Source: Candidatus Auribacterota bacterium
GTDB taxonomy: Bacteria > Auribacterota > Tritonobacteria > UBA1439
Direction of reading: 5' to 3'
Length of the DNA: 64,000 bases
NCBI GenBank assembly: GCA_026392015.1
Contig: JAPLCW010000028.1
Span: 1-64,000, forward strand
Both the position numbers and the translations under genes were made by a program. Shown here piece by piece: positions 10,369-64,000 of the stretch. The notes beneath the pieces were generated by a model. The model was not told where the DNA came from. It saw nothing but the letters and a program-made list of their open reading frames with translations, and did no database searches. Every line of letters starts with the position of its first letter. Position 1 is the stretch's first letter.

Positions 10369-10661
10369 CTATCGAGCAATCGAGCTATCGAGAAAGGGCG
10401 GCGAAGACGGAGGGAAGTAAGCACATTATCGAGTGTCGGGCCAGATGTTCATCGCTTCTCGATAGTTCAAGGTAATGGGTCAGTTATTGGGGGGTAGTCA
10501 GTTGAATTGTCATCCCCGCGAAAGCGGGGATCCAGCATAAAGTCTGGACTCCTGCTTTCGCAGGAGTGACATGTTTTAGAATTTGTACCCCACCGAAACT
10601 GACCCATTACAGTTCAAGTGTTATTTAGCTGTCTTCCTCGATAGCTTGATAGCTAAAAATA
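10369..10661. repeat. Inverted 8-bp-period arms around a MITE, no gene
   Basis: The left arm near 10369-10396 is CTATCGAG-CAATCGAG followed by CTATCGAG, three 8-bp units. The right arm near 10638-10660 reads CTCGATAG-CTTGATAG in the opposite orientation. A single CTCGATAG also occurs at about 10458. The space between is filled by the IS66-type MITE and carries no credible gene. It has the 8-bp period of the arms around the two S23 genes. A similar lone stretch lies at about 35559-35611. Confidence 0.45.
10472..10610. mobile_element. IS66-type MITE with perfect 8-bp target duplication
   Basis: The 139-bp element starts GTAATGGGTCAG and ends CTGACCCATTAC. The direct repeat AGTTCAAG abuts both ends (10464-10471 and 10611-10618). 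The interior has the GTCATCCCCGCGAAAGC palindrome and its counterpart CTTTCGCAGGAGTGAC in inverted orientation. It encodes no protein. GTAA termini with an 8-bp duplication are the signature of the IS66 family, so a trans-acting IS66 transposase elsewhere is inferred. Confidence 0.85.
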
Positions 10662-17739: not shown

Positions 17740-17872
17740 GTAAGTGGTCATTTCTATTGGGGCCTTATTGTTTGTCATCCCCGCGAAAGCGGGGATCCCG
17801 TATGGAACCTGGATTCCTGCTTTCGCAGGAATGACATATTCCATAATGTTGCACGATTAAGTGACTCGTCAC
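17740..17872. mobile_element. IS66-type MITE, degenerate ends
   Basis: Starts GTAAGTGGTCA and ends AAGTGACTCGTCAC (11 of 14 positions match the better-preserved right ends). Flanking 8-mers are GAAAATCC (17732-17739) and GAAATTCC (17873-17880), 7 of 8 identical. The interior carries the GTCATCCCCGCGAAAGC palindrome pair. It fills most of the gap between the ComEA-like gene and leuS. Just beyond it is a short 9-bp-period stretch (ATTCCGCGA-ACTCCGCGG). Confidence 0.7.
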
Positions 17873-17903
17873 GAAATTCCGCGAACTCCGCGGTTTCATC
17901 CCT

Positions 17904-20478: not shown

Positions 20479-20862
20479 TTACTCTTTCCTTATAACCCAG
20501 TTGTCTGCATCGCTTATCATCTTGACGATCTGAGCTATAATGTGATCATATTCCTCATCCAATCGTTTAATATCGGATTCGCTGATATAATTGCATCGGC
20601 GACTGAATTCAAGCCATACTTGCGTTTCGGCTGCTTCTGTTTCGGCATCGCTTAGTTTATTAATGAATGCAGCTCTGTACCGCCTCTTACGCCACGCTTC
20701 CGCAATATTTGAGCACACCGATCTTGAAGACCGCCTAACCTGATCCACTAAGGAAAATCTTTCTTCCGATGGAAAAGCCTTTGTAATTTGGAATATCTCC
20801 ATCGCGACATCCATCGCCCTGCGATAAACATCCAGCTCTTTGTAACTTCTTATTGTCGCCAT
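20479..20862 (-). CDS. Four-helix-bundle protein (S23 / 23S rRNA intervening-sequence family), copy A
   Basis: 127 aa, all helical. It has the family signature of ...YKELDVYRRAMDVAMEIF, FP.EERFSLVDQVRRSSRSV and the highly conserved ETQVWLEFSRRCNY region. Such proteins were first found in intervening sequences of spirochaete 23S rRNA and are related to the Avd accessory protein of diversity-generating retroelements. Here the gene is free-standing, with no rRNA or reverse transcriptase nearby. It is closely similar to copy B at 37.9-38.2 kb, including a 30-residue identical core. It is framed by inverted 8-bp-period arms, and the upstream arm runs into its start codon. Function is unknown; a cassette-type mobile gene is inferred. 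Confidence 0.88.
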   Translation of the reverse strand: MATIRSYKELDVYRRAMDVAMEIFQITKAFPSEERFSLVDQVRRSSRSVCSNIAEAWRKRRYRAAFINKLSDAETEAAETQVWLEFSRRCNYISESDIKRLDEEYDHIIAQIVKMISDADNWVIRKE

Positions 20863-20930
20863 CCGCCGCTCCGCCCCTTGCCCTTTGAATTTCTTTAACG
20901 CCGCGTCGCCGTGTCGCCCCTCGCCCCTTC
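20857..20930. repeat. Upstream 8-bp-period arm of the S23 cassette A
   Basis: Read on the minus strand, an outer block (GGGGCGAG-GGGCGACA, then CGGCGACG-CGGCG) is followed by a 15-nt spacer and an inner block GCGGCGGA-TGGCGACA. The inner block contains the ATG of the S23 gene (GGATGGCGACA). The purine-rich unit GGGGCGGA upstream could act as the ribosome site. Confidence 0.6.
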
Positions 20931-21665: not shown

Positions 21666-21770
21666 TCACCCCACAATGCAAAAACCTCTAACCGCAGATT
21701 GCGCAAGATCTTATAATCCGCCTAATCCGCTAAATCCGCGGTTTTATCCTTTAAACCGCAAAATACTTTT

Positions 21771-22254
21771 AACCGCGGATTTAGCGGATTGAGCGGATTA
21801 CCTGAAAAATCCTTATTCTTTTGCATCGAAATAAGTTTCGCAGATAAGCCTTTTCCACTCCAAACTTCTTTTGCCGAAATTCAGAAGCAAACCGACTTTT
21901 ATCGTTGTGGCTTTTAAATAATTGAAAACTTGAGCCTCATCAATCTCAGTGAGTCCCGAAGTTGCTTTTGTATTGACAATTATTTTATCTTCAACTATGA
22001 GGTCAGCCCTATATCTATGCTGCAGTGTGGTATTCTTATAGTATATAGAAAGCTCTTTCTGCCTATCATAGCGCAATCCCACATTATTAAGTTCCATGCC
22101 CAGAGCTTCTTCATATACTGCTTCCAAAAACCCCGGCCCTAATACTCTATGAACCTCCATCGCCGCGCCGAGAATTCTCTCTGTAATATTGCCATGCAGA
22201 AGGGGTTCCTTTACTTCCATAAAATAATCCGCCCAATCCGCCAAATCCGCGGTT
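21771..22254. mobile_element. GxxExxY cassette A: 30-bp inverted arms around one gene
   Basis: The left arm (21771-21800) is three 9-bp units of the type GCGGATTTA-GCGGATTGA. The right arm (22225-22254) is its inverse with 28 of 30 matches. The only gene inside is the GxxExxY ORF: its stop lies 12 bp from the left arm and its ATG 4 bp from the right arm. Additional partial arms of the same class lie outside (about 21690-21760 and 22262-22292). The unit stands between the AMMECR1 and Memo genes. Confidence 0.8.
21813..22220 (-). CDS. GxxExxY protein (PD-(D/E)XK-fold family), copy A, catalytic Glu replaced
   Basis: 135 aa from ATG 22220; an in-frame TTG at 22244 would add eight residues encoded by the repeat arm itself. 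The name-giving motif is G30-FLEAVY. The nuclease-fold core is RYRADLIVEDKIIVNTKA: Asp73 is kept, but the expected E-x-K reads N83-T-K85, so the metal-binding Glu is lost and the copy is probably inactive. C-terminal features QVFNYLKATTIKVGLLLNFG are typical. Compare copy B (44832-45254), which keeps E-x-K. The molecular function of the family is not established. Confidence 0.88.
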   Translation of the reverse strand: MEVKEPLLHGNITERILGAAMEVHRVLGPGFLEAVYEEALGMELNNVGLRYDRQKELSIYYKNTTLQHRYRADLIVEDKIIVNTKATSGLTEIDEAQVFNYLKATTIKVGLLLNFGKRSLEWKRLICETYFDAKE

Positions 22255-22294
22255 ATAACTCTTTAACCGCCTAATCTTCGTAATCTGCGGTTTA

Positions 22295-23757: not shown

Positions 23758-26700
23758 TTAGTCGGAAGCTACCTGTATTCTTTCTTCATCAATCAGAAGA
23801 GCGGCGGATCGGCTGGGGGGGCTGCCGGGATGCATAAGACCGGCGATTATGTTGTAGCTCCCTCCCGAGCCAGGGGGCAATGCGGATATCTCAAGCAGCC
23901 TTCCGTTGTAGCCCTGCGGCAACCCCGGTACGTTGGTGGCCAGCGGCTTGAGCCCGTCGGCCAATCTCCTGTCGAGCATTATGGATTTAATCTTACCTCC
24001 GGGGAAAACCACCACTGCATACGCATCAAACGGTTGATACACGGGCAGCACTAGCAGATCCGCAAAAAAGCCATTTCCCGTATGTGGTGAATTGCTGCTG
24101 ACACGGACATCAAAAGGCGGCGCGGGGGTCGGAGTGGCGGTGGGAATGAACCCCGGGGTTTCGGATCCATCGGGACGCGTTGGAGTGGACGTGGGCTCGG
24201 GGGGCGCGGTCGTTTGCGGCGTCGAAGTCGATGAAGGCTCATGCATGGGCGTCATCGTAGGTGTAGCCGTAGGGGTACACGTAGGGGTCTTCGTTGGTGT
24301 AGCCGTCGGCGTTGGCGTCGAGGTAGGAGAAATCGTCGGAGTCCCAGTCGGTGTGGGCGTGGGAGAGATAGTTGTCATGCCGGTTGGTGTTGACGTTGGG
24401 GTGACAGTTGGTGTGGGGGTTGGCGTAGGGATGGCCGTTTCTGTAGGTGTAGCTGTGGGAGTAAGCGATTGCGCCGGCTTGCCGTAGACCTCAATCTCCT
24501 GCATGGCGATGAAATCACGCTTCTGGTAGCTGTCCAAGGTCATACGCATGTACCGGCCTACAGACGGAGGGAAGGTATAGATCATCGGATATCTTCCATT
24601 CTGTAAACTGTGGAAGGTAAAATTCGACTCTTTGGACAGCAGGCTCTGTTCACCTGAAAACGCCCCCGTGGGGGATATCTCAAATCTGAAATCGTACCCC
24701 TCGTAACCCCATGGCGCGTAATCATCCCACATCGGATAGAAATGTATTTTGCAGACCGCGTAGTCATCTCCCAGATCAACCTGCCAGTAAGAGTCCCTCT
24801 GATACTCCCTCGGCCGCCACCATTCCCAAGGATTTGGCCTCCCTTCAAGGAAATTCCCGATAAAATCAAACTTGACACTGTTCACCAAAATATCCGGGGT
24901 AAGCCACATTGGATCGCTTTCCGATGCCGTCACCGGCTTGCCCAATGCGACATTCCAATATTCATTGGGATCAACCCCATTGACAACGCCAGTCTGAATA
25001 TCGTATTCGGCGCTTTCGGTCTCTCCTGAATAATACGCCATATTCATCCGCCTCGCCTCATAGAACTGGAAGTCAACTTGATTCTCCGCTTCGATTTTCA
25101 GCAATACCGCACGATACGTCTGCACGCAAAGATCAAACGGTTCGTACGAATCATGGACATCGATGATGCCATCCGCGTTAACATCATAGGCGGATACTTC
25201 ATCCCATGTAATGCGACCGTCACCGTTCACATCATGGGGAAGGATGCCTGTGTCAGGGTCTCTGGCCATGAATATGTTGCATCCAACAAACACCCTTCCG
25301 TTTTCATCGGAGATCGTGGAAAATTCAGGGAGATTATCGAACTGCTTGATCTCATACCAGCGGAGAATCTTATAGCAATATAGTGTGACCCGCGCACCCG
25401 GCAGCGGATTGCCCGCCGCATCCAATATTCTAAAATAGTTCTCATGCGGAAGAAGATGCGTATAGCGCCCGGTGTAATCCACATTGATGTTTGCGTTCAT
25501 GAATTCCACCCGCTTCCCTTTATAATAATCCATTGTTTGAACGTGATAGGGTGCGTAACCTATATCATAAGAACCGCCCATATGCTCGGGTTCGGGATAG
25601 TATATACCCGCCGCATTTGCCCCCATTATCATGGGAAGATATACCCTCCCGGCAATATCCTCCCCCATATGTTGCACCAACATATATTGTTCTTTGATAA
25701 CACCATTTTCAATCCGGTAGGCCGGCATATCGGTTGCATAAGTATCGATTAACGACAGCCCATGACTCATCTCATGCAGCAATGAATACTCCCGATCGAA
25801 CGCCTCCACATAGTGGCCCGTGCCCGGATTTTTGTACACGCATGATTTATCAAATCCCCACTGAGTATCCATTGTCCTTGTGGCAAATGGATAGTTCCCC
25901 CAAATGAAAGTGCCGTTATCCCGTATTTCGATCTCATCGATATACATCCGCTCGCCAGTCCCATTAAACCGGCAGAAAGTGTTCCACACCGCTATCTGGC
26001 GCTGGGCCCAATCCTCCCAGGAGTTGGATCCCAGCCCGAGATTCACCTGCTCATTATCGAACATATGGAGAATGCTCTCATTCAGCGCGAACCCAACCAT
26101 CTTGCCCGTATTCATGATGGTAACACTGTTGTTCTCCTCGGATATCTCGGGGATGGCGTCATTGATGTCCGCGACAAAGCTAATATCATGATCGCCTTCC
26201 TGCCATGTCCATACCAGGTCCGTCGCAACCCCGGGTGGGTGGGTGACAGAAGACGACTGCAGCGGATCGGATGCGGGTCCGGCGCAGTGCGGGTCGCGCT
26301 TCACCGCGTCCGGCGGAGGAGGCAGCGGCTTATAATCGGATCTGTCTACTCCCCGGGCATCGCTTTTCCCTCCCGGTGCCGCCGTAGAAATATGCCACAG
26401 GAGCGCCTCGCTGCTTAAGGGAATATTCAGAGATACCGTCGAAACCTCCCGTCCATCGATGTACCATTTGCATTGGACATTGTTCAGATCCGATGCTCCG
26501 CGGTTGCGGACATGAGCTCGGAAGGTCACACTGTCGCCAGCGGCAGGTTTGTTCTTTACGGCGTTAAAATTGTATTTCGGGAAACGCTCAATATACGTGA
26601 CGTCAACATCCTCGTTGCCGCCACCTTCCGTGATCGTGACCAGCTCCAGTTCCCTTAAATGAACTCTCTTCGATCCGGTGAGATTCTCAACCTCAACACG

Positions 26701-27306
26701 GAAAGCCCTGGCGCGCCTCAAGGGAAAATCGAGCGTCACGAACCTGTCTGACTGGACACGTTCTTTGTATATCAAGTTTAAGAACTTCTGCGAGCGGCTA
26801 TTTACTCCATCCAGCGTGTCTGCTGACTGGACCGTTACCTTATATGGCTTGTCCCCGAAGGCATCTGCGCAGTAAATCTTTATCCCCTTCGCGACAACCC
26901 AATCAGGATATTCCATAGTAAACCAGGTCGGCTGAGGCCATGTATCCTGCATTCCATAGGTGGTCAGATCGCCGTCGGTTAAACCTGCCGGAAAATTCCC
27001 CGATTGATCATTGCCGCTGGTCTCCCATAATGGAGGCCCTGAAGGCGCGCGTGAAAGTGCATGGTGCGCATAGTTATTATTGTGGACACGAGTTCCAATC
27101 CTAGCCGGCTCAACAATTCCTGTAGCATACTCTGTGATGTTAGAACTCATCGTATAATGAATCTGGGGCGTACAGGACAGGGCGGTAGTATTATCTAGAT
27201 GTGCCACTGCAGTCACAGGCTCCCACTCGGAATAAAGCGGTGTGACATGATACAGAAATAGGAACAGCATCAAAATCTCTGGAGTAATTATTGCTTTTTT
27301 AATCAT
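23758..27306 (-). CDS. Large secreted protein with metzincin-like HExxH motif, CARDB, discoidin and Thr-Pro linker
   Basis: 1182 aa, exported (N-terminal signal, GGAGGAGGG ribosome site). Approximate order: a discoidin/NPCBM-like beta domain (about 85-230); a CARDB-like domain with an inserted Pro-rich loop (about 240-400); a domain with [15 protein letters not shown], whose H511, E512, H515 and D521 fit HExxHxxxxxD, the metzincin zinc site with Asp as third ligand and Ser for the usual Gly; a dockerin/EF-hand-like stretch [13 protein letters not shown]...[12 protein letters not shown] (about 690-720); a second discoidin domain ([12 protein letters not shown]..., about 780-945); about 100 residues of Thr-Pro repeats; and a C-terminal beta domain. 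A surface-bound or secreted protease acting on glycoproteins is inferred. It follows the subtilase gene by 32 bp. Confidence 0.8.
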
Positions 27307-27338
27307 TGCACCCTCCTCCAGAGATTTTCTATCCAGAA

Positions 27339-30300
27339 CTATTTTATCGTGAAATATCCCTCGCTCAGATCATATACTGATGGATGCATAATGCTCTGAA
27401 CACCCGCACGATAGTCCTTGCCCTTCGGAATAGCAGACGGCACTTTGCAGACGAATGAGCCTGGGCCGCAGGGAACAGGCGCAACGGTCATGACTATCCT
27501 TTCGCCGCGCAACACGCCCAGTCTCACATATCCTCCGATATCGCCGGCAGATTCCCATTTGAGCTCAACCGTGCTGCCGCGTTTTATCATCTCTCCCCCA
27601 TTCGGGTACGGCATCGTGAGTGACGGCAGAGATGTCGGGGTCGGCGTGGCATCCTCTAATTCCGTCAACACAGTGTCCGGCGTGGGAGTGGGAAGCATCA
27701 CATCAAATGGCGTGGGGGTGGCGCTGGCTATTTGCTCGGGCATCCCCGCCGGCGTCTGAGTGGGCGTTGGCGTCGGCGTAGGAGTTGGGGTATCTGTCGG
27801 CGTCGCTGTTGGGGGCGGAGCGCAAAGCATTTCGGCATTTAGGGTTGGAGAGCTTGTTTGTACAGAGGCAGCGGCGGTGCCCTGAGATATCACGGAGCTG
27901 GCTATTGCGGGTTCATAGGTTGAGGGCGATGGTATTGTGACCGCCAGATCTATACTCTCAATATAGGAACAATGGGGAATGTTACCGGAAGAATCAAGTT
28001 TGAAAATTAAGACGTCCATATTTCCCGATCCATAATAACTTGCTCCTGTGCCTCCGGCCACAACATAGCCGCCGTCAGATGTCTGCTGGATGGAAGAGGC
28101 ATAATCATAACCCCTCCCCCGGAGAGTCCTTGCCCATATCTGATTCCCGGATGAGTCAAGTTTTAGAACGAGGAAGTCGCTGGACGGCACCCCGGACTCG
28201 TATGTATAGCCTCCCACAATATAGCCGCCATCAGATGTCTGCTGGATGGAAGAAGGGTCATCATCACTGATCCCCCCGAAGGACTTCGCCCATGTCTGAT
28301 TCCCGGATGAGTCAAGTTTGAGGATAAGGAAATCATCGTATCTCGTTTCATTATTATAGGTGCTACCTGCCACAATGTAGCCGCCGTCGGATGTCTGCTG
28401 GATAGATTTAGCCTCATCCCAGTAGCTCCCTCCGAAAGTCCTCGCCCATGCCTTATTCCCCGATGAGTCAAGCTTCAGGATAAGGAAGTCGCTGATCCCC
28501 GAACTGTATGTATCACCTGCCACAATGTAACCGCCATCAGAGGTCTCCTGGATGGAAAAAGCCGCATCAATGTCGTTTCCCCCAAAAGTCTTGGCCCATA
28601 TCTGATTCCCGGATGAGTCGAGTTTTAGAATGAGGACATCCGTGCTGCCGGTATCTGTACTACCTGCCGCAATGTAGCCGCCATCAGAGGTCTGCTCTAT
28701 AGCGTTAGCACGAATGTTGCCGCTCCCCCCAAAAGCCCTTGCCCATGTCTGTGTTCCGGATGGGTCAAGTTTCAGGATAAGGGCGTCCTCGTACCCCGCT
28801 CCATAACTGGATGTATAGCCCCCCACGATATAGCCGTCGTCGGAGGTCTGTCGGATGGAAGAAGCCCAATCATCTTTGCCCCCCCCGAAAATCCCAAATT
28901 CACTAATCGGATTAGGTGTCCCCGGCGTCTTGGTCGGCGTCTGGGTGAAAGTACCTGTCGGGATCGCACTTGGCGTCCGGGTCGCTGTCCAGGTTGGCGT
29001 AGGGGTCTGGGTCGGCGTCTCTGCCGGGGTTCCTATCTGCTCCAAGCCGATCGGCAACTCATTGCCCGGTGGATATCCGGAAAACCCGGGATAACTCTCG
29101 GAAAATGGATAATACCCGCTCGCAGTGACCGTTATAGCAATCGTGCCCGTGTCATGCGCGCGTACCGTGATGGAACATTCCCCGGTGGCGTCGGTCATGC
29201 AACTATCGCTTCCCATCGGATCCCCGGGCGGATAGGGATACGATATCGCATTCACCTCCGCGCCTACGATGGGGGCGGCGGGCGTCGCGGCAGCGTCATA
29301 CACATGTAGTGTGCGCGTCCACCACAGATCGCCCACCTGTGTCGGAGTCGGGGTTGGCACCTCAACCTCACGTACTGCGCGCACATAGGCTATAGCCGTA
29401 CTAATTGGGAGTTCATACAACGCGCAATTGGAAAAGCTAACACCGTATGCATCGTATTCGGTCGCCTCGGTAGATGACCAGTACGAGCTTGGATGATAAT
29501 CGCCCATGACCCCTTTGTTCGCGCATATCGTGATTAGCTCGTCTTTCGTCGGCAGCCGCCAGTCATCCTTATCCAACCACACCAGATCAGTTCCCCAAGA
29601 ACACATAAAGGGCCATTCCGGTACGATGTTTGTATCAGTGCCGGCATTATTGGTCCACTTGGCAACATACATGTTTCCTATTTCAACAACCATATCCTTC
29701 CCTCGGGGAGCTGGACCCCACTCCTCATACCACGATGCGTAGGTAGGCGTGATCGTCGGCGTCACGGTCGGGGTTGGGGAAATCCAAGAACTATTCCTCG
29801 GATTCGGGCTCACCTCCGAAAAATCGGTGAGGTTGTCGTTTGTATCACGCCCGTCGGCATTCCGCTTCCAGGCTTTTGACTGAGTCAGCCAGCCCAGCCT
29901 CCTCCCCTCGTAGAGGATTGAGGACGCCCAGCCTAAGGTGTCAATGCTCTCCCGAAAATATCCGAGTAGCTGCGCATAACTGTACAGCCCGTTGTCGTAA
30001 AAATCGATGGCGGTATACACATCAGGGATCACACCGCACACCGGACTGGTGTCCGATATAAGGAAATAGCCTTTCGCGGGAATTACATCGGAAGATCTGA
30101 ATAAATAATCTCCATAAGACACATGCAGCCTGTAGCCACCGAGATTGACCGGCGAATCCGCACTATTGTAAAGCTCGACATACTCACCCGGAGTGCTGAA
30201 CGGGCAGACCTGGTTGACCACAATCTGAGTAACAGGTGTCAGGGTCACAGTCGGCGTCTCTGTGGGTGTGGGAGTTGGGGTGATTGTTGGCGTGGGGGTG

Positions 30301-33300
30301 CCCGCGAGTGTGGTGAACTTATTCGCATTACTCCACGGGCTGTCATTCCCGTTCCTGTCGGTGTGCCTCACCCTGACCCAATAGTCGGTGCCTCGATCCA
30401 GGACAGGATCCACATCTATTGCAGCATAATTCTCAACATTGTCATAGTTGGACCATGCAAGCTCACTCAGCCCTTCGTCCCTGTAAATCTCCCAATCACT
30501 CGAAATATGCTCATCACCGATCATTATCGGCACGTGCTGCTGGTATAGAATATTCCGGTGGTGTTCGGAAATCTCCGCTTGGGACAGCGCGCGGCGATAC
30601 ACCCCTACCTCGTCAATCTTGCCGTCAAAATTGCCGCAACTATCGCTCTGCCTGCCGCCGATCCAGAGATGCGCTGACGCATTCCCCTTCATGATCCCAT
30701 AGGGCGTGTTATCCATCCCGCTCGCTTGCGCATTGACATACAATCTGAGATTTGAGGGGGCTTCGTATGTGAACGCCACATGGTACCAGCTACCCGGCTT
30801 TGCCGATACGCTGCTTGCCGCAATGAGGTAATCCATCTGATCGGTGTTCCATATAACCGCCTCAAACTTGTTATTTCTGTGATACAGCCCCCATTCAAAA
30901 AATCCGTGATCCCCCTTGCTGACAATCCAGTAACGGTCGTTGCCGCTGGAGTGAATAAGGACCCAGGCTTCAACCGTGAGATTGTTTTCGGAGGGGCTGT
31001 AGTCGTCGGCATCGTCGAAGGCAATATACCCGGGCGGCGTAAACTCGGGCCCTTGCCATAGCGCGCCGGTTCCCCAGCTGGCACCGTGGTTCGTCCCGTT
31101 GTGTCCATGACCTGTTTCGTCATTGAGGTTATTCTCAAACCGCCACTGGGCCACCAGATCCAGGTCCGGCATCAGATCCGGATCGCTGAACTCGCTCGAT
31201 ATGATCGTGGGATCGAGCGAGACTCCCGTCTCACCATTGGCCGGCTCGATGATGCTCGGCTGATCAGGCGATCTGCCTAAGGGTGTGAGCGTTGGCGTCG
31301 GCGTGTGGGTTGCGCAATAACAGCAGTCGCAGGGCCCCCCGCAGATTTTTGATTCCCCGGCGGCACACTGCGTACCCGTTGCACATGGGGTACAGGATGG
31401 CATAGTCGTGGGCGTCGGCGTTATCGTGGGCGAAGGTGTCGGTGTTGGTGTCTCCGTCGGTGTGTCGGTTGGAGTCGGAGTGGGCGTTGGTGACGGAGCC
31501 TCGACGACTTCCATCTCCACAGGTACTATCACGTTGTCTTTCAACCGATCGTTGCTTTTGATATTTAGTTCAGCCGTGTAGTTCCCGCTCGGCAGACCAG
31601 TGGCATCAAATGTAACCTGGACGGAATCCTGAGAAGAAGGAGCAACATTGCCGGAATCCGGATCAACTTCAAGCCAGCCGCACCCTGAACTGAGAAGCAA
31701 TGCATTATGAGCATTTATCCTTCCCTCGCTTACGCACTTTCCCGAAAGGGCAGGAATCTTGTCCACACTGTCCAGTATTACCTGTTTAATCCCCAGGTGA
31801 GTCATACCGGGTGAATGGGACATAAGCAATGTAGCCAGGCCGGCAACGTGCGGTGTGGCCATCGAAGTGCCGCTCATTGTGGCGTATTTATTGCCAGGGT
31901 AAGTGCTCAGAATGTCCGATCCGGGCGCCCCCACGTCCACCGAGGTTGGGCCGTAATTGGAAAAATATGATAGTGTATCTGCATGGGTCGTAGATGCGAC
32001 CGCGATAATATTCGCGTTGTTGAAGCTGGCGGGATAAACCGCATGGTTATCGTTATTGTTCCCACTATCGTTGCCTGCTGCTGCGATAAAGAGTACGCCC
32101 GCCTGATTGGCCGCTTCAATCGCGTCATGCAATGCCTGCGCATAGTTTCCGCCTCCCCAACTATTGCTCAAAACTTTGGCGCCATTCGCAACCGCATATT
32201 CGATGCAGCTTATCGCGCCAGCTGTGGATCCGGACCCGTCACTACCCAGAAACTTCAAAGCCATGATCTTTGTTTTCCAATTCACTCCCACCACACCTAT
32301 GCCATTATTCCCCACCGCCCCGATCGTGCCCGCGCAGTGTGTCCCATGGCCGTAATCATCCATGGGATCGTTGTCGCCATTGCAGTAGTCCCAGCCGTAG
32401 ACGTCGTCTACGAGACCATTCCCATCGTCATCTATTCCGTTGTTCGGAATCTCACCCGGGTTTGTCCACATATTGGCTGAAAGATCCTCATGGGTATAAT
32501 CAATGCCCGTATCAATCACCGCAACAACCATGTTTCGCTCGCCTTTATAAACGCCCCACGCCTCAGGGGCGTCTATATCCGCATCGGGCGCGCCGCCGGT
32601 CTGTCCGGAGTTGTGCAAGCCCCATAATTCCGGGAAGCGCGGGTCATTGGGCGTGCCCGATTCACTCCCGCGGATCTTCACGCCTTTGGAAGCAAGATCA
32701 GTTCGCCCGTGATCGTTTCGCATTACCCTGCTCTGTGCGGCTATATCGCTCGGCGGGTTGCTTTCCTCGATAGCCTTCACGATGTAGTTTGGCGCTGCAT
32801 AAGATACATCATCACGTTCATTCAAGCGCGAGATAGCTTCCTCTAAAGTCATCGAGCTACCCAGCTTGAGGTGATACAGGTGGGGGACTAGCTTGTATTC
32901 GCGAATTACCCTGCCCTCCAGCTGCGCGAGAATACCTGCCCGGGAAGAAAGTGAAACCTGCGGTTTAAACCTGACTAAGATTTCATCGGGAATGTGAGGC
33001 TTGGAGAGATCCGGCGATTTGGCCAATGCGTCGCCTTGCGGGTTTCCATCAACAGAAGAGCCGGCGCTCTTTGACAGGGTCTTTGCTCTATAATCTCCCG
33101 CTGAACCTAAATTCCGCTCGCCGCGTGATGTTTTTACAGAAAATCCTCCCTCATTGGATAACCCTTCCGTTGTTTCATGCGGATAGATTCTATACGACAA
33201 CTCACCTATTCCCAGATTCTCGATTATAATATTCCTGACAGTTTGACTTCCGGATTCGAGAATCACGCTAAGGGCGGAGGGTGTTACCTCAATATCAGGC

Positions 33301-34226
33301 GGGAGGGGCGTTTGCGTCGGCGTGGGACTTGGAGTCGTAATTGGATCCATGAACAATTGAAGTACGTATCCTGGCTTGCCCAAAGGTACCCAGTATTCAC
33401 ACCCGGTTAAATAGCCCTCTGCCACAGCGCATACCGATGCCGAGCCATACCCCTGGTCATTTACTTCACCACAGAGCTCCAGTTGACATGTACAATCGTA
33501 AGTATCGCACTCATCGGAATTCTCACCCTTACATTGACAATAAGACCCACCTTCTACATGCGCGCCATTTATGCATTGATGATTGCTGGTATCCATGGTA
33601 ATTACCGTTAATCCCAACAGTGGACACGTGGGTGTCGGCATTACCGTCGGTACAAGCGTTACTGTTGGCGTCGCTGTCGATGTCTCCATTGGCGTCGCTG
33701 TGGGCGTCAGCGTCACGGTTGGCGTTGCAGTCGGCGTCATGGTCGCGAGGGGATATTCATCGATATCCACCACACCGGGGCGTGAATCGGTGATGGTAAA
33801 TTCCGCAGCGGCCAGATTGCTTATCCATCCGTTCCGGTCCAACGGATTGCCGTCCGGCCGCACGAGTAATCCGAGCACTTTGTATTTTCCGTTGCTCAAT
33901 CCGTTGAGGTCAACAGCAATACCCCCGCGGCCTGTCATCACTTTACAATGCCGGACGAGTGCCCGTATTCTGTTATCCCTTTCTCTCTGTCCCGCTATAA
34001 TCTGAAGCTTCCCGTCGGGACACTGAAATGCAAGATATCCATCTGCAGAAATCCCCTCCTGAGAAGGTTCAAAAGTCGCATCAATTTGCAGAGTGGCGCT
34101 ATCAGTGATATCCGATTGTCGGGTAGTAAGCTGAAGGCGAATCGAGGGGGGGCTCGATGGATAAGAATTCAAAGAGGTGAGAACTACGATTGCAATTCCC
34201 GCTGTCAGACATCTGAGGATTTTCAT
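27339..34226 (-). CDS. Giant multidomain secreted subtilase (2295 aa)
   Basis: Signal peptide with a strong AAGGAGG site. Domains, approximately: N-terminal beta domain (25-150); Thr-Pro linker; Cys-rich region (200-280); beta domain; fervidolysin-like propeptide (425-500); S8 subtilase with D572 ([13 protein letters not shown]), H627 (GHGTHCAGT) and S788 ([11 protein letters not shown]); beta domain; Cys-rich segment ([10 protein letters not shown]...CDCCYC); LamG-like jelly roll (about 1020-1220); fibronectin-like segment; lamin-tail domain (about 1330-1460); DUF1566/C-type-lectin-like domain with WRLPTKDEL and YWSSTEA (about 1510-1620); carboxypeptidase-regulatory-like domain (about 1640-1725); six roughly 51-residue repeats with [11 protein letters not shown] (about 1770-2085), probably a beta-propeller; linker; C-terminal Kre9/Knh-type domain. 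Linkers are Thr-Pro repeats. Probably a processive surface protease or adhesin. It shares an operon with the metzincin-like gene. Confidence 0.88.
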
Positions 34227-37855: not shown

Positions 37856-38245
37856 CTAAGACTCTTTTTGTTTGATAATCCATTTATCTGCATTCTCCAG
37901 CATTGTAATTATCTGTGCGATGCAATGATTATAACACTCATCCAAGCGCTTTGCGTCGTCATCATTCAAATATCCGCATCGCCGACTGAACTCAATCCAT
38001 ACCTGGGTCTCAGCCGCTTCAGTTTCAGCGTCGCTTAACTTGTTAATAAACGCTGCACGGTAGCGCCTTTTCCGCCATGCCTCTGCGAGATTTGCACATA
38101 CCGACCTTGACGACCTGCGGATTTGATCAACCAATGAATATCTCTCCTCAGGAGGAAACTTAGCGGTGATTTTAAAGATCTCCATAGCCGCGTCCATTGA
38201 TCTTTGAAATACATCCAATTCCTTATAACTGCTTATCACCGTCAT
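37856..38245 (-). CDS. Four-helix-bundle protein (S23 / 23S rRNA intervening-sequence family), copy B
   Basis: 129 aa and strongly similar to copy A (20479-20862), differing mainly at the ends. It has the conserved YKELDVFQRSMDAAMEIF, RRSSRSVCANLAEAW and ETQVWIEFSRRCGY regions. It is free-standing between accA and an L,D-transpeptidase. It is enclosed by a 45-bp array downstream and 8-bp-period blocks upstream; the ATG again falls in the inner end of the upstream arm (minus strand CGGCGGAT-AGTGCGAT-GACG). Function is unknown. Two near-identical copies in similar surroundings suggest recent spread. Confidence 0.88.
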   Translation of the reverse strand: MTVISSYKELDVFQRSMDAAMEIFKITAKFPPEERYSLVDQIRRSSRSVCANLAEAWRKRRYRAAFINKLSDAETEAAETQVWIEFSRRCGYLNDDDAKRLDECYNHCIAQIITMLENADKWIIKQKES

Positions 38246-41289: not shown

Positions 41290-41424
41290 GTAATGGGTCA
41301 GTCTTGGGGGGTATCCCTTTCACTTGTCATCCCCGCGAAAGCGGGGATCCACTATGAAACCTGGATTCCTGCTTTCGCAGGAATGACATATTAAGCAATG
41401 TACCCCCCATAAGTGACCCCTTAC
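41290..41424. mobile_element. IS66-type MITE
   Basis: Starts GTAATGGGTCAGTCTTGGGG and ends CCCCCCATAAGTGACCCCTTAC. Flanking 8-mers are TTTTCGGA (41282-41289) and TTTTCGGG (41425-41432), 7 of 8 identical. The interior carries the GTCATCCCCGCGAAAGC palindrome and the inverse CTTTCGCAGGAATGAC. The remaining sequence to 41577 holds no gene. Confidence 0.82.
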
Positions 41425-42696: not shown

Positions 42697-43427
42697 AAGC
42701 GCTTCTCCTCGCAGCGGGATGCGGCACCAGGTTCCATGCGGACGGTAAAGGGATACCCAAGCCCATGGCGCGTGTGGCCGGGAAGCCGCTGCTCGAACAC
42801 GCCCTGGAGCACGTCCGCGATCACGGCGTCACGCAGATATATATCAACCTGCACTATCGGCCATCCGCAATACAGAACTACTTCAAAGACGGCCTGCACT
42901 GGGGGGTAAAGATTCAATACTCCCACGAGCCCGAGCTCCTGGGAACGGCGGGAGCGGTGAAGAAACTCCGCCGCGAACTCGACGACACTTTTTTAGTATA
43001 CTATACGGATAACCTGTGCTCGTGCAACCTGGCAAAAATGGCCGCCTTCCACAAAGAGAAGAGAGCGCTCGCGACAATTCTCGTCTCCGTAAGCTACGAC
43101 GACCTTGCGGGAGGGGTCATCCGATGCGATGAGGAGGGTCGGATCCTGAGCTTTCTGGAGAAGCCGACGGACGTCGTTCCGGGAGAGCGCCTCGAGAACG
43201 GAGGTATCTACATCCTCGAACCGCGGATCATGGATTATATCCCCGATGGCGGGCCGAGCGATTTCTCGAAGGACATCTTCCCACATCTTCTCCGGTCCGG
43301 GGAGGCGCTCTATTGTTACCGGGCAGAGGGATATGTGCGCGGAATCGACACCCCGGAGAGGTACAGGAACCTCCAAAGGGAATTACACAAGGGGACGCTG
43401 ACGGAAGAGGAATCAGGACGCAGATAA
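42693..43427 (+). CDS. Sugar-phosphate nucleotidyltransferase (heptose-1-P guanylyltransferase-like)
   Basis: 244 aa from GTG 42693, which overlaps the epimerase stop. The NTP-binding signature is LLAAGCGTRFHADGKGIPKPM, with YYTDNL as the metal-binding Asp region and ENGGIYILEPRIMDYI downstream. With the SIS and GmhB-like genes that follow, a GDP-D-glycero-D-manno-heptose pathway is a good fit (HddC role), although no sugar kinase (HddA) is in the window. The last residues SGRR and the stop are supplied by the beginning of an inserted 9-bp-period repeat. Confidence 0.85.
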   Translation: MKALLLAAGCGTRFHADGKGIPKPMARVAGKPLLEHALEHVRDHGVTQIYINLHYRPSAIQNYFKDGLHWGVKIQYSHEPELLGTAGAVKKLRRELDDTFLVYYTDNLCSCNLAKMAAFHKEKRALATILVSVSYDDLAGGVIRCDEEGRILSFLEKPTDVVPGERLENGGIYILEPRIMDYIPDGGPSDFSKDIFPHLLRSGEALYCYRAEGYVRGIDTPERYRNLQRELHKGTLTEEESGRR

Positions 43428-43518
43428 ACGCAGAGCACGCAGATATGCAAAGGTTTCAAAGGGGAAGAACACAAGGCTGAAATCTGCTGCTTTTTTAATC
43501 TGCGCAAATCTGCGTCCA
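43414..43518. repeat. Empty GxxExxY-type element E1
   Basis: The left arm TCAGGACGCAGATAAACGCA and onward (43414-43445) and the right arm TCTGCGCAAATCTGCGTCC (ending near 43518) are inverted and built of 9-bp-type CGCAGAT units. The roughly 60-bp interior ends in CTGCTGCTTTTTTAATCTGC, shared by the other empty copies. It begins inside the last codons of the nucleotidyltransferase gene. Confidence 0.75.
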
Positions 43519-44111: not shown

Positions 44112-44707
44112 AGAAATATCGCGCTGTGTTCCTTGACAGGGACGGGGTGATCAACAGCCTCGTGCATAAAAGAGGCGCCGTCGATTCCCCTTTTTCCGCC
44201 CGACAGTTTAAACTGCTGCCGGGGGCGGGAATGGCGATACGGAAGCTCAACCGTCTCGGAGTAAAGGTCGCTGTCGTATCCAATCAACCGGGCGTGGCCA
44301 AAGGAAACTTCACGGCAGCCGCTCTCAGGGAAATGACGGAGAAGATGGAGAGGGGACTCGGGCGCGCCGGAGCTCGGGTCGACGGAGTCTACTACTGCCT
44401 CCACCACCCGCAGGCGTTGCTCCGCCGCTACAGGAGCCAGTGCCGGTGCCGCAAGCCGAAACCCGGTTTGCTTCTGCAGGCGGCGAAGGAACTCACTATC
44501 AATCTCCGTCAATCGTTCATGGTGGGAGACAACCTCACCGACATCGAGGCGGGGAAAGCCGCGGGGTGCGCAACGATTTTTGTCGGAAGCTTGAAGTGCG
44601 ACCAGTGCCGGTTTATGCGTGCGAAAAAAGCAATGCCGGATTACATCGCGGCGGATATAATGGACGCGGTAAGGGCTATTCAAAAACATTTTTCAGGACG
44701 CAGATGA
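44108..44707 (+). CDS. GmhB-like HAD phosphatase (heptose bisphosphatase family)
   Basis: 199 aa. The HAD nucleophile motif is FLDRDGVIN and motif II lies in VVSNQPGVAKG. The GmhB-type zinc loop is complete: C-L-H before HPQALLRRYRSQ and C-R-C before RKPKPG. MVGDNLTDIEAGKAAG is motif IV. It removes phosphate from heptose 1,7-bisphosphate or histidinol phosphate in related enzymes; the neighbours favour heptose. An upstream extension of this frame through the SIS gene is not coding. The final SGRR and stop come from an inserted repeat, as in the nucleotidyltransferase gene. Confidence 0.85.
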   Translation: MKKYRAVFLDRDGVINSLVHKRGAVDSPFSARQFKLLPGAGMAIRKLNRLGVKVAVVSNQPGVAKGNFTAAALREMTEKMERGLGRAGARVDGVYYCLHHPQALLRRYRSQCRCRKPKPGLLLQAAKELTINLRQSFMVGDNLTDIEAGKAAGCATIFVGSLKCDQCRFMRAKKAMPDYIAADIMDAVRAIQKHFSGRR

Positions 44708-44806
44708 ACGCAGAACACGCAGATAGAAAAATGATCCGAGGAAACAATGAAGTTTGCAGGCTGCTTCTTCCTTAATCTGCGTTCATCTGCGCGAATCTGC
44801 GTCCAA
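44693..44806. repeat. Empty GxxExxY-type element E2
   Basis: The left arm TCAGGACGCAGATGAACGCA and onward (from 44693) and the right arm ATCTGCGTTCATCTGCGCG and onward (to about 44806) are inverted. The interior ends GCTGCTTCTTCCTTAATCTG. It begins in the last codons of the phosphatase gene and supplies its stop. It is followed within 15 bp by the gene-bearing copy. Confidence 0.78.
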
Positions 44807-44820
44807 TTTTAAACCGTTAT

Positions 44821-45298
44821 TCAGGACGCAGATGAACGCAGAGCACGCAGATTATGGCCAGTTCAAACACATTGAGTTAACCGAGCTGATTCTTGTCGCA
44901 TTTTATAGGGTATATAGCGAACTTGGATATGGATTTCTTGAAAAGATTTACGAAAATGCAATGGTTATTGAGTTACGTAAATCCGGGCTAAATTGTATAC
45001 CGCAATCCCCCATACGCGTGTTGTATGATGGGCAACTAATAGGTGAATATTTCGCTGACATCCTTGTGGAAAGCAAAGTCATAGTGGAGATCAAAGCCGC
45101 AAAATCCCTTATAGAGGAGCACGAAGCTCAATTATTGAATTATCTAAAGGCAACAAATATCGAAGTCGGATTATTATTGAACTTCGGAATACGACCCGAG
45201 ATACGGCGAAAGGCCTTTGACAACGAGCGCAAGTTAATGAGAGAATCCTCTTAATAGTGATATCTTATCTGCGTTCATCTGCGACAATCTGCGTCCAA
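44821..45298. mobile_element. GxxExxY cassette B: gene-bearing element
   Basis: The left arm (44821-44852, TCAGGACGCAGATGAACGCA and onward) and right arm (45267-45298, ATCTGCGTTCATCTGCGACA and onward) are inverted sets of three roughly 9-bp CGCAGAT-type units. The GxxExxY ORF starts in the left arm and stops 12 bp before the right arm, the same 12-bp distance as in cassette A. Empty copies with the same arms lie on both sides. Confidence 0.8.
44832..45254 (+). CDS. GxxExxY protein (PD-(D/E)XK-fold family), copy B, intact motif
   Basis: 140 aa. The only plausible ATG lies in the repeat arm, so residues 1-7 (MNAEHAD) are repeat-encoded, and AGGA in the arm (CAGGACGCAGATG) is well placed as ribosome site. 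The motif GFLEKIY gives the family its name. The nuclease core is intact: Asp76 (YFADILVES) and E86-I-K88 (VIVEIKA). The tail NYLKATNIEVGLLLNFG is characteristic. The biological role is unknown. Association with inverted-repeat arms in two unrelated unit sequences in this window suggests that the gene travels with such arms. Confidence 0.9.
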   Translation: MNAEHADYGQFKHIELTELILVAFYRVYSELGYGFLEKIYENAMVIELRKSGLNCIPQSPIRVLYDGQLIGEYFADILVESKVIVEIKAAKSLIEEHEAQLLNYLKATNIEVGLLLNFGIRPEIRRKAFDNERKLMRESS

Positions 45299-45310: not shown

Positions 45311-45370
45311 TCAGGACGCAGATAAACGCAGAGTCCACAGATAAAAATGGTTCGAGCTATCTGCGTCCGA
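45311..45370. repeat. Short element E4
   Basis: A shortened member: the left arm TCAGGACGCAGATAAACGCA and onward and a reduced right arm ATCTGCGTCCGAA, 60 bp in total. It lies just upstream of the transaldolase gene, whose ribosome site follows about 15 bp later. Confidence 0.6.
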
Positions 45371-46123: not shown

Positions 46124-46238
46124 TCAGGACGCAGATGAACGCAGAGCACGCAGACAAGGAAATGGTTCAAGTTGAAAAGCACAGGTTGAAAGCTGCCGCT
46201 TCGTTAATCTGCGTTCATCTGCGACAATCTGCGTCCAA
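46124..46238. repeat. Empty GxxExxY-type element E5
   Basis: The left arm TCAGGACGCAGATGAACGCA and onward and the right arm ATCTGCGTTCATCTGCGACA and onward are nearly identical to those of cassette B. The interior (GGTTCAAGTTGAAAAGC...GCCGCTTCGTTAATCT) is about 60 bp. A lone right-arm fragment lies just before it at about 46090-46112. Confidence 0.78.
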
Positions 46239-46250
46239 TCTAAACTTTGT

Positions 46251-46374
46251 TCTGGACGCAGATGAATGCAGAGTACGCAGATACAAAAATGGTGCGAAAC
46301 GGCTGGAGGGGAAAAGCCCAATGTTAAAAACTGCTGCTTTGTGAATCTGCGCTATCTGCGGTATCTGCGTCCAA
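46251..46374. repeat. Empty GxxExxY-type element E6
   Basis: The left arm TCTGGACGCAGATGAATGCA and onward and the right arm ATCTGCGCTATCTGCGGTAT and onward. The interior includes CTGCTGCTTTGTGAATCTG, as in E1 and E5. It is more diverged than E5 and fills the gap before the convergent GT-C gene. Confidence 0.72.
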
Positions 46375-46398
46375 TTCTTAATCGCTGTTACGGCTAAG

Positions 46399-50171: not shown

Positions 50172-50467
50172 ACTCCTCCAAACAAAACTGACGGTATTCG
50201 AAGAAATTACCTTGTAAACAAACCGTATCCTCCCTCACCGCGAGGGAGTCATTATGACAGAGATCGCGACTTCATCCCTTTTTTGAAAGAATCATCCAAC
50301 CTATATTCGCAGCATAGCCGCCTCAGGGAAGCGTGGCTTCTTCAAAAAGCTTATTGTATAACAGCAGGCTTCACTTTTTGTACAATTATTTAGAATTACA
50401 TAAATCCGAATATCGAAAATAGTCTAATTTACTTTTGAGCAGAACACACGATCCCGAAAAGGATTAC

Positions 50468-50626
50468 GTAAGGGGTCACTTATGGGTGGTACATTGCTGA
50501 ATATGTCATTCCTGCAAAAGCAGGAATCCAGGTTTTATAATGGATCCCCGCTCGAGTTTACACTGAGCGCAGTCGAAGTGCCGGGATAACAAGCGAAATG
50601 GATACCACCCATAAGTGACCCCTTAC
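50468..50626. mobile_element. IS66-type MITE with perfect 8-bp target duplication
   Basis: Starts GTAAGGGGTCACTTATGGGT and ends ACCCATAAGTGACCCCTTAC. AGGATTAC abuts both ends (50460-50467 and 50627-50634), 8 of 8. The interior has GTCATTCCTGCAAAAGCAGG and, in place of the usual right half-palindrome, a different stretch (GAGTTTACACTGAGCGCAGT) that makes this copy longer, 159 bp. Confidence 0.87.
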
Positions 50627-63543: not shown

Positions 63544-63782
63544 TGTATGTTTCTCCAGGAGAGCGGTTATTTGTGCCGCGTAATAGTAACACTCCGGGTG
63601 CCTGTCGCGCACTCGTTTTCCAAATATGCGGTTGCCCTGACACGCGCAGCTGTCTTTAGAGTCTTATGTCATAACTTCTCCGCAGATTGCGAAGAAGTTA
63701 TATGATGACATATGCCTAGCCTGATCTATTCACCAACTAAAAACTAACATACCCGCCCAATAGCACAACAGACTACACGCTT

Positions 63783-64000
63783 TTAACCACTGAAGGCGCT
63801 GAGGTCACTGAACGGTTCGAACAACTATCTCATTGATATCATTATCGTTATTCAGGACGCAGATGAACGCAGAACACGCAGATACAAAGACAGTGTGAGG
63901 TAAAAACTTCAAGGGTTCACGCTGCTTCTTTTGTTAATCTGCGTTCATCTGCGCAAATCTGCGTCCAAATACTCAGTGTATTCAGTGCCCTCAGTGGTTA
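63783..64000. repeat. Nested repeat: 9-bp-period outer arms around element E7
   Basis: The outer left arm (63783-63813) reads ACCACTGAA-GGCGCTGAG then GTCACTGAA. The outer right arm (about 63972-64000) is its inverse (CAGTGTATTCAGTGCCCTCA and onward to GTGGTTA). The right arm may extend past the window. Inside lies another complete element with a different unit sequence. Confidence 0.7.
63852..63968. repeat. Empty GxxExxY-type element E7
   Basis: The left arm TCAGGACGCAGATGAACGCA and onward and the right arm ATCTGCGTTCATCTGCGCAA and onward, with the interior ending CACGCTGCTTCTTTTGTTAA. It is nearly identical in plan to E2, 19 kb away. It sits within the outer CACTGA-type arms. No gene was seen in 63544-64000. 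Confidence 0.75.

Follow-up and report, generated by a model that had tools for sequence, protein, structure and literature searches.

The GxxExxY gene designated copy B has its only plausible canonical start codon inside the inverted-repeat arm at its 5′ end. The gene lies in the window, by which we mean the whole stretch of 64,000 nt analysed from Candidatus Auribacterota bacterium (assembly GCA_026392015.1, contig JAPLCW010000028.1, positions 1-64,000, forward strand). We consider it probable that copy B is a compact inverted-repeat cassette in which the reading frame overlaps the ends and the ATG of the arm has come into use secondarily as a start. The gene, its arms and the elements of its start region are as follows.

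44821 to about 44853, forward strand: 5′ arm of the copy B cassette, TCAGGACGCAGATGAACGCAGAGCACGCAGAT, with units CGCAGAT-GAA-CGCAGAG-CA-CGCAGAT; pairs with 45267-45298 in the predicted fold
44823-44826, forward strand: AGGA, candidate Shine-Dalgarno sequence 5 nt before the ATG; weak, -4.0 kcal/mol
44827-44831, forward strand: spacer CGCAG between AGGA and the ATG of copy B
44832-44834, forward strand: ATG start codon inside the copy B arm, conserved in relatives
44832-44858, forward strand: codons 1-9 of copy B, MNAEHADYG, the first seven arm-encoded; predicted to be disordered
44832-45254, forward strand: GxxExxY / PDDEXK_3 gene, copy B, 140 aa plus stop, with TIGR04256 and PF13366 matches
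45267-45298, forward strand: 3′ arm of the copy B cassette, ATCTGCGTTCATCTGCGACAATCTGCGTCCAA; the spacer opposite the start codon is non-complementary

Copy B and its protein

An earlier note on this DNA held that the only usable ATG of copy B is inside the arm and that MNAEHAD is therefore repeat-encoded. This is borne out: the ATG at 44832-44834 lies within the arm at 44821-44852, and not one ATG, GTG or TTG follows it before the domain. The sole other in-frame start is a TTG at 44754, within the neighbouring hairpin, and the frame is open up to that point. The gene is intact and keeps the invariant columns of its family.

Profile searches make copy B a clear member of the TIGR04256 / PF13366 PDDEXK_3 family (TIGR04256: 2.1e-38, 131.3 bits against a cut-off of 35; PF13366: 2.2e-40, 138.1 bits against a cut-off of 22). 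The AF2 model has a pLDDT of 89.7, and its Foldseek neighbours, SSO0001, lambda exonuclease and Hjc, are PD-(D/E)XK nucleases. Judged by this model, copy B is a nuclease-like protein of the PD-(D/E)XK fold. Residues 1-5 and 7-9 fall under a pLDDT of 50, and since residues 1-9 are mostly below that value, the tail encoded by the arm is probably disordered and harmless. A PDB sequence search with copy B returned no match, and searches of Rfam, PADLOC and PDB sequences gave nothing informative, only a weak similarity to Cas4. The definition of TIGR04256 / PF13366 covers the protein only; flanking arms, hairpin derivatives and arm-borne start or stop codons are not included in it, and in the literature searched there was no paper describing these arms together with GxxExxY.

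The arm is a dispersed repeat

The arm pattern occurs nine times in the window against 0.00 expected from shuffles, and 37 exact copies are present in the genome, where the reversed control pattern has none. Of these exact copies 35 carry the ATG, and one alone fronts an intact GxxExxY gene. The ATG is thus present in about 34 of the 36 non-coding arm copies of the source genome; the copies read there are mostly non-coding hairpins of about 115 bp in which it opens only some 11 codons. Because the ATG is so common in non-coding copies, AGGA and ATG are to be counted as part of the repeat consensus, and alone they are no evidence of an expression signal. Members of the repeat family near copy B and elsewhere in the window are these.

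43414-43518, no strand: non-coding hairpin of the same repeat family, GATAAACG, without ATG
44694-44806, no strand: non-coding hairpin of the same repeat family, adjoining copy B
45312-45370, no strand: short or remnant repeat directly 3′ of the copy B cassette, GATAAACG
46125-46237, no strand: non-coding hairpin of the same repeat family as the copy B arm
46252-46377, no strand: diverged non-coding hairpin of the same repeat family as the copy B arm
63853-63967, no strand: non-coding hairpin of the copy B arm family, nested in CACTGA-unit arms

GxxExxY itself has five matches in the source genome, two of them full genes and both of these in the window. Two fragments of the gene lie at G000:C197:22073-22418 and G000:C187:16291-16404, one of them frame-broken.

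Inverted arms across the GxxExxY family

We surveyed GxxExxY genes from the bacterium's own phylum, from GTDB genomes spanning many phyla (80 loci) and from Desulfobacterota-related groups. Once near-duplicates had been removed 180 genes were left, and their flanks were tested for inverted repeats against 100 shuffles. Significant flanking arms, with 100/100 shuffles beaten, were found around 128 of the 180 genes compared with 2 of 106 control ORFs from the same loci. Most GxxExxY genes are thus bounded by inverted terminal repeats, as an autonomous element with MITE derivatives would be. Relatives on viral contigs and plasmids were few, so carriage by phage or plasmid is not the route seen.

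Among the 128 genes, the nearest start codon is inside the left arm in 19, 0-9 nt downstream of it in 22, 10-30 nt downstream in 32 and more than 30 nt downstream in 52; the rest have none or one upstream. These counts take the ATG nearest the domain as the start, a choice biased against arm starts, and taking the farthest ATG instead places 21 inside the arm. The stop codon falls within the 3′ (right) arm even more often, in 40 of the 128, and for this reason we read the overlap of start and arm as a sign of an extremely compact cassette rather than of arms evolved as expression signals. Purine-rich sequences predominate among the left arms (90/128). In a second architecture (L164, L165, L297, L325, L326 and others) the gene sits between two complete hairpins, so that a pyrimidine-rich arm adjoins the start.

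Arm starts in relatives of copy B

Ten loci with an in-frame gene share GGACGCAG followed by ATG(A/G)ACGCAG and a protein start of the form MNAD-xQDFK. They are copy B, L102, L160, L162, L163, L252 (domain broken later), L291, L294, L295 (interrupted later) and L323, from genomes of the bacterium's own phylum, Desulfobacterota and Ratteibacteria and from Myxococcota-labelled genomes. L296 has a related form of the arm start, and six more loci start in other arm types: L096 (ACACGCAG before ATGAACGCAG), L298, L301, L319, L320 (GCCACAGATTCRCACAG before ATGA) and L337. All fifteen intact in-frame relatives with an arm start that were checked use ATG, have no further ATG, GTG or TTG before the domain and have an in-frame stop 4-37 codons upstream. 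The search for NAEHAD-like, repeat-encoded N-termini proposed in the earlier note was therefore successful, yielding MNAD-xQDFK(Y/H)K in relatives from several phyla. The outcome that the note had named as contrary, starts at non-AUG codons past the arm in most homologues, was not seen; the start is past the arm in most homologues, but the codon there is ATG.

Differences among nine relatives at codon positions 1/2/3 number 28/69/92 in codons 5-11 and 8/16/70 in codons 12-14, and this rise toward position 3 from codon 5 onward is the pattern of translated sequence. Arm codons 2-4 have 8/0/0 differences; being frozen at synonymous sites, they indicate that the arm is under constraint as DNA or RNA. 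In a tree of 88 domains, built on a short alignment and with many forks open, the arm-start label needs nine changes, implying repeated gain or loss of the arm start.

The G of the ATG is present in 10 of 10 arms that precede intact genes and is rarer in non-coding arms when these are compared within genomes. The contrast is complete in the Ratteibacteria genome G047, with ATG in both gene copies (2/2) and ATA or ATT in every non-coding arm (20/20). A genome-stratified exact test gives p of about 6e-4 for all ten coding copies having the G, a value that comes nearly all from G047 and from coding copies that are related to one another. The G also occurs in 28 of 79 non-coding arms from other genomes, and since 34 of 36 in the source genome keep it as well, we dropped a general rule by which coding arms would have ATG and non-coding arms ATA or ATT. 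The excess of G in coding arms is supporting, not decisive, evidence for the arm start. In L292, L303, L397 and L402, which include both coding and deleted copies, a small palindrome, TTTTTAATGCGCCTAAGGCGCATAAA, is inserted right behind the arm-encoded codons and breaks the frame.

Ribosome site and predicted RNA fold

According to the earlier note the arm supplies both ribosome site and start codon. The start codon stands, being conserved in relatives; the ribosome site does not, as the energy of pairing with the anti-Shine-Dalgarno sequence is near background. The median duplex energy upstream of arm starts is -3.0 kcal/mol; other GxxExxY genes have -3.5 and random positions -2.6, and in the CACAG sub-clade the pairing is about -0.5 kcal/mol, that is, none. 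AGGA occurs in only part of the copy B clade, the remainder having TGGA or GGGA. As its energies are no better than those of other GxxExxY genes, the notion that the arm supplies Shine-Dalgarno sequences was rejected.

In the predicted RNA fold of the full copy B cassette, GGACGCAGAU of the 5′ arm, including the AU of the AUG, pairs with the 3′ arm (z -2.77 against shuffles), and GAA, including the G of the ATG, is left unpaired in an internal loop. Such pairing, if real, would damp translation of full-length transcripts. In ISPpu9, an mRNA fold that buries the ribosome-binding site of the transposase lowers translation (PMC8450116). An Rfam search of the window found nothing at gathering score, the best chance matches lying far below.

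Deletion derivatives and putative mobility

Short copies in Desulfobacterota (L393, L396, L403, L409, L385 and others) retain the 5′ arm with the first ~10 codons, together with the last bases and the 3′ arm; L403 reads MNADCKDFKHKELIE and then a stop. Such copies, at dispersed sites, have lost the interior of the coding cassette and stand to it as MITEs do to an autonomous element. Flanks differ among loci in genomes G047, G642, G019 and G000, which places the arms at or near the ends of the element. The GxxExxY cassette would on these grounds appear to be mobile; no target duplication was recognised in the flanks of the copies compared. Many Desulfobacterota copies (L291, L293, L386, L395, L396, L403, L409) have a leader, TATAGGAAWTYCCWTTTTT, before the left arm, which in L280 lies downstream. 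A leader like it is found in G047, where the arm that follows is of a different type.

Copy A and the S23 cassettes

The window holds a second full GxxExxY gene, copy A, and two cassettes with an S23/IVP gene.

21813-22220, reverse strand: GxxExxY copy A, with its ATG 4 nt after its own arm
22225-22264, reverse strand: 5′ arm of copy A, 40 nt of GCGGATT units, 88% complementary to 21761-21800
21761-21800, reverse strand: 3′ arm of copy A
20479-20862, reverse strand: S23/IVP gene 1, ATG outside the paired arm at 20899-20918
37856-38245, reverse strand: S23/IVP gene 2, ATG outside the paired arm

What had been claimed for copy A proved accurate: 4 nt separate the arm from the ATG at 22220 (reverse strand), and read upstream the frame enters the arm, where it has a TTG at 22244. 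The same note had put the ATGs of both S23 genes in the innermost arm unit, and here the alignment disagrees, placing them outside the arm, 27 and 16 nt from its aligned edge; the surroundings of both ATGs are degenerate, unit-like sequence outside the detected inverted arm. Across the S23 genes of the bacterium's own phylum 20 of 25 have significant arms, and in these 20 the start is never inside the arm and the stop is inside it in 7. S23/IVP (PF05635; 20479-20862 and 37856-38245 in the window, and L130-L159) is a family unrelated to GxxExxY and weakly similar to the DGR protein Avd; its arms are of the same style as those of GxxExxY (20/25), with a unit sequence individual to each.

Comparison with known systems

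Copy B resembles the intervening sequences (IVS) of 23S rRNA that contain an S23/IVP gene, as in Coxiella burnetii, in being a small ORF between terminal inverted repeats in a selfish cassette, and also in having tandem short units just before the start codon and a poor Shine-Dalgarno sequence (PMC4990558). Those IVS are cut out as RNA by RNase III (PMC4990558). The copy B protein, in contrast, is unrelated (PF13366), the cassette is outside rRNA, with no Rfam match in the window, and the ATG lies in the arm; within the window PF05635 is found in the two other cassettes only and not in copy B.

Dispersed palindromic hairpins, tandem clusters and non-coding copies that far outnumber the coding relative are shared with REPIN/RAYT systems (PMC3116915). 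RAYT, however, is a tyrosine HUH transposase (PMC3116915), whereas the protein here is a PDDEXK_3 protein of the PD-(D/E)XK fold and is located between the arms. As with autonomous insertion sequences and their MITE derivatives, a coding element is accompanied by internally deleted copies with both ends, and a possible mRNA hairpin over the start region is a further likeness, here to ISPpu9 with its buried ribosome-binding site (PMC8450116). Unlike them, the cassettes are without a transposase gene, no target duplication was found, and the arms are built of degenerate ~9-10-nt units.

Origin of the arm start

In the reading that we favour, copy B would be the protein-coding member of a small hairpin-forming repeat family. 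The cassette would comprise an arm of ~32 nt, a gene of ~420 bp for a small PD-(D/E)XK-fold GxxExxY protein and an inverted arm of ~32 nt, and because it has almost nothing else in it, the reading frame overlaps the ends. Translation would start at an ATG present by chance in the 5′ arm consensus, CGCAG-ATG-AACGCAGAT, and would give the protein a short N-terminal extension (MNAEHAD, or MNAD in relatives) that is disordered and tolerated. What keeps the arm would be mainly its role as a DNA or RNA end; use of its ATG as a start would be secondary, having arisen in several lineages and been conserved thereafter. In most of the GxxExxY family the start codon follows shortly after the arm. Pairing of the two arms in a full-length transcript can hide the start region, and expression is therefore probably low. 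We infer initiation at the arm ATG of copy B, mobility of the cassette and damping of translation by the hairpin. Several points count against this account: the start region is paired with the 3′ arm in the predicted fold, non-coding copies in the source genome and in others also keep the ATG, the S23 protein of the comparable cassette that has been studied best is apparently not produced in vivo (PMC4990558), and neither an empty site nor a target duplication was identified.

The broader proposal of the earlier note, that arms may be expression signals, is not supported as a general rule. That the arms of the whole class evolved to give a ribosome site and a start to any gene they flank is improbable, even though the copy B clade has AGGA or GGA 5 nt upstream of the ATG, the start is in the arm or at most 9 nt after it in 41/128 genes, and 90/128 left arms are purine-rich. 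The start is actually inside the arm in just 19/128 GxxExxY and 0/20 S23 genes, anti-Shine-Dalgarno energies are no better than in other members, and some members have a Shine-Dalgarno sequence of their own between arm and start (AGGAGG in L164, GAGGAG in L297); moreover, non-coding hairpins share both the ATG and the R...Y polarity. Alternatively, the arm ATG might be mere repeat consensus before a silent or decaying gene that is not translated. The ATG of 34/36 non-coding hairpins in the source genome, opening ~11 codons, would fit this, as would the burial of start and Shine-Dalgarno sequence in the predicted stem, the breakage of several relatives (L252, L292, L303, L127) and the finding that the S23 protein inside the Coxiella IVS is apparently not synthesised in vivo (PMC4990558). 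We think it unlikely all the same, as copy B is intact with the invariant family columns kept, changes between relatives concentrate at third codon positions, and the arm-start frame is preserved in at least 15 loci.

Were copy B translated from a non-AUG codon beyond the arm (ATT or CTG, around codons 14-19), the product would be shorter yet keep the whole domain, and homologues without arm overlap mostly start 9-36 nt before the domain. Homologues nevertheless use ATG and not ATT or CTG, the arm-start clade has no GTG or TTG available, and the xDFK(Y/H)K stretch before the domain is conserved with third-position bias, all of which makes such a start highly improbable. There is some chance, though we would not favour it, that the overlap is mainly regulatory, with arm pairing in read-through or full-length mRNA hiding the start so that the protein stays scarce. 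The pairing of GGACGCAGAU, including the AU of the AUG, with the 3′ arm at z -2.77 and the ISPpu9 precedent for reduced translation (PMC8450116) speak for it; the fold, however, comes from one sequence and leaves the spacer with the G of the ATG unpaired, and any inverted repeat brings arm pairing with it. Regulation of this kind can coexist with the compact-cassette explanation. More speculatively, GxxExxY might be the sole enzyme of widespread, undescribed minimal mobile cassettes, consisting of a small PD-(D/E)XK nuclease, arms of degenerate ~9-10-nt units and hairpin derivatives; the overlap of the frame with the mobile ends would then be deliberate, any change in an end also affecting production of the enzyme.

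For a family of unknown role, the N-termini MNAEHAD and MNADxQDFK are now available for testing. Automatic start calls in such cassettes must read the repeat as coding sequence. The tie between GxxExxY genes of many phyla and hairpin-repeat arrays with deletion derivatives makes the mover of these repeats directly testable.

Other repeats of the window

CGCAG hairpins (63781-64000 in the window; most in L006-L035) are nested in a second inverted repeat of CACTGA units, AACCACTGAAGGC...CCCTCAGTGGTTA, and this composite CGCAG-in-CACTGA repeat has multiplied. Another dispersed repeat, GTAAGGGGTCACTTATGG... with TGTCATTCCTGCGAAAGCAGGAATCCAG, is unrelated to the arms and lies at 306-379, 10472-10610, 17772-17877, 41324-41424 and 50463-50626. 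Long tandem repeats occupy 28035-28787 and 24293-33745, in and around a 2295-aa ORF at 27339-34226 on the reverse strand.
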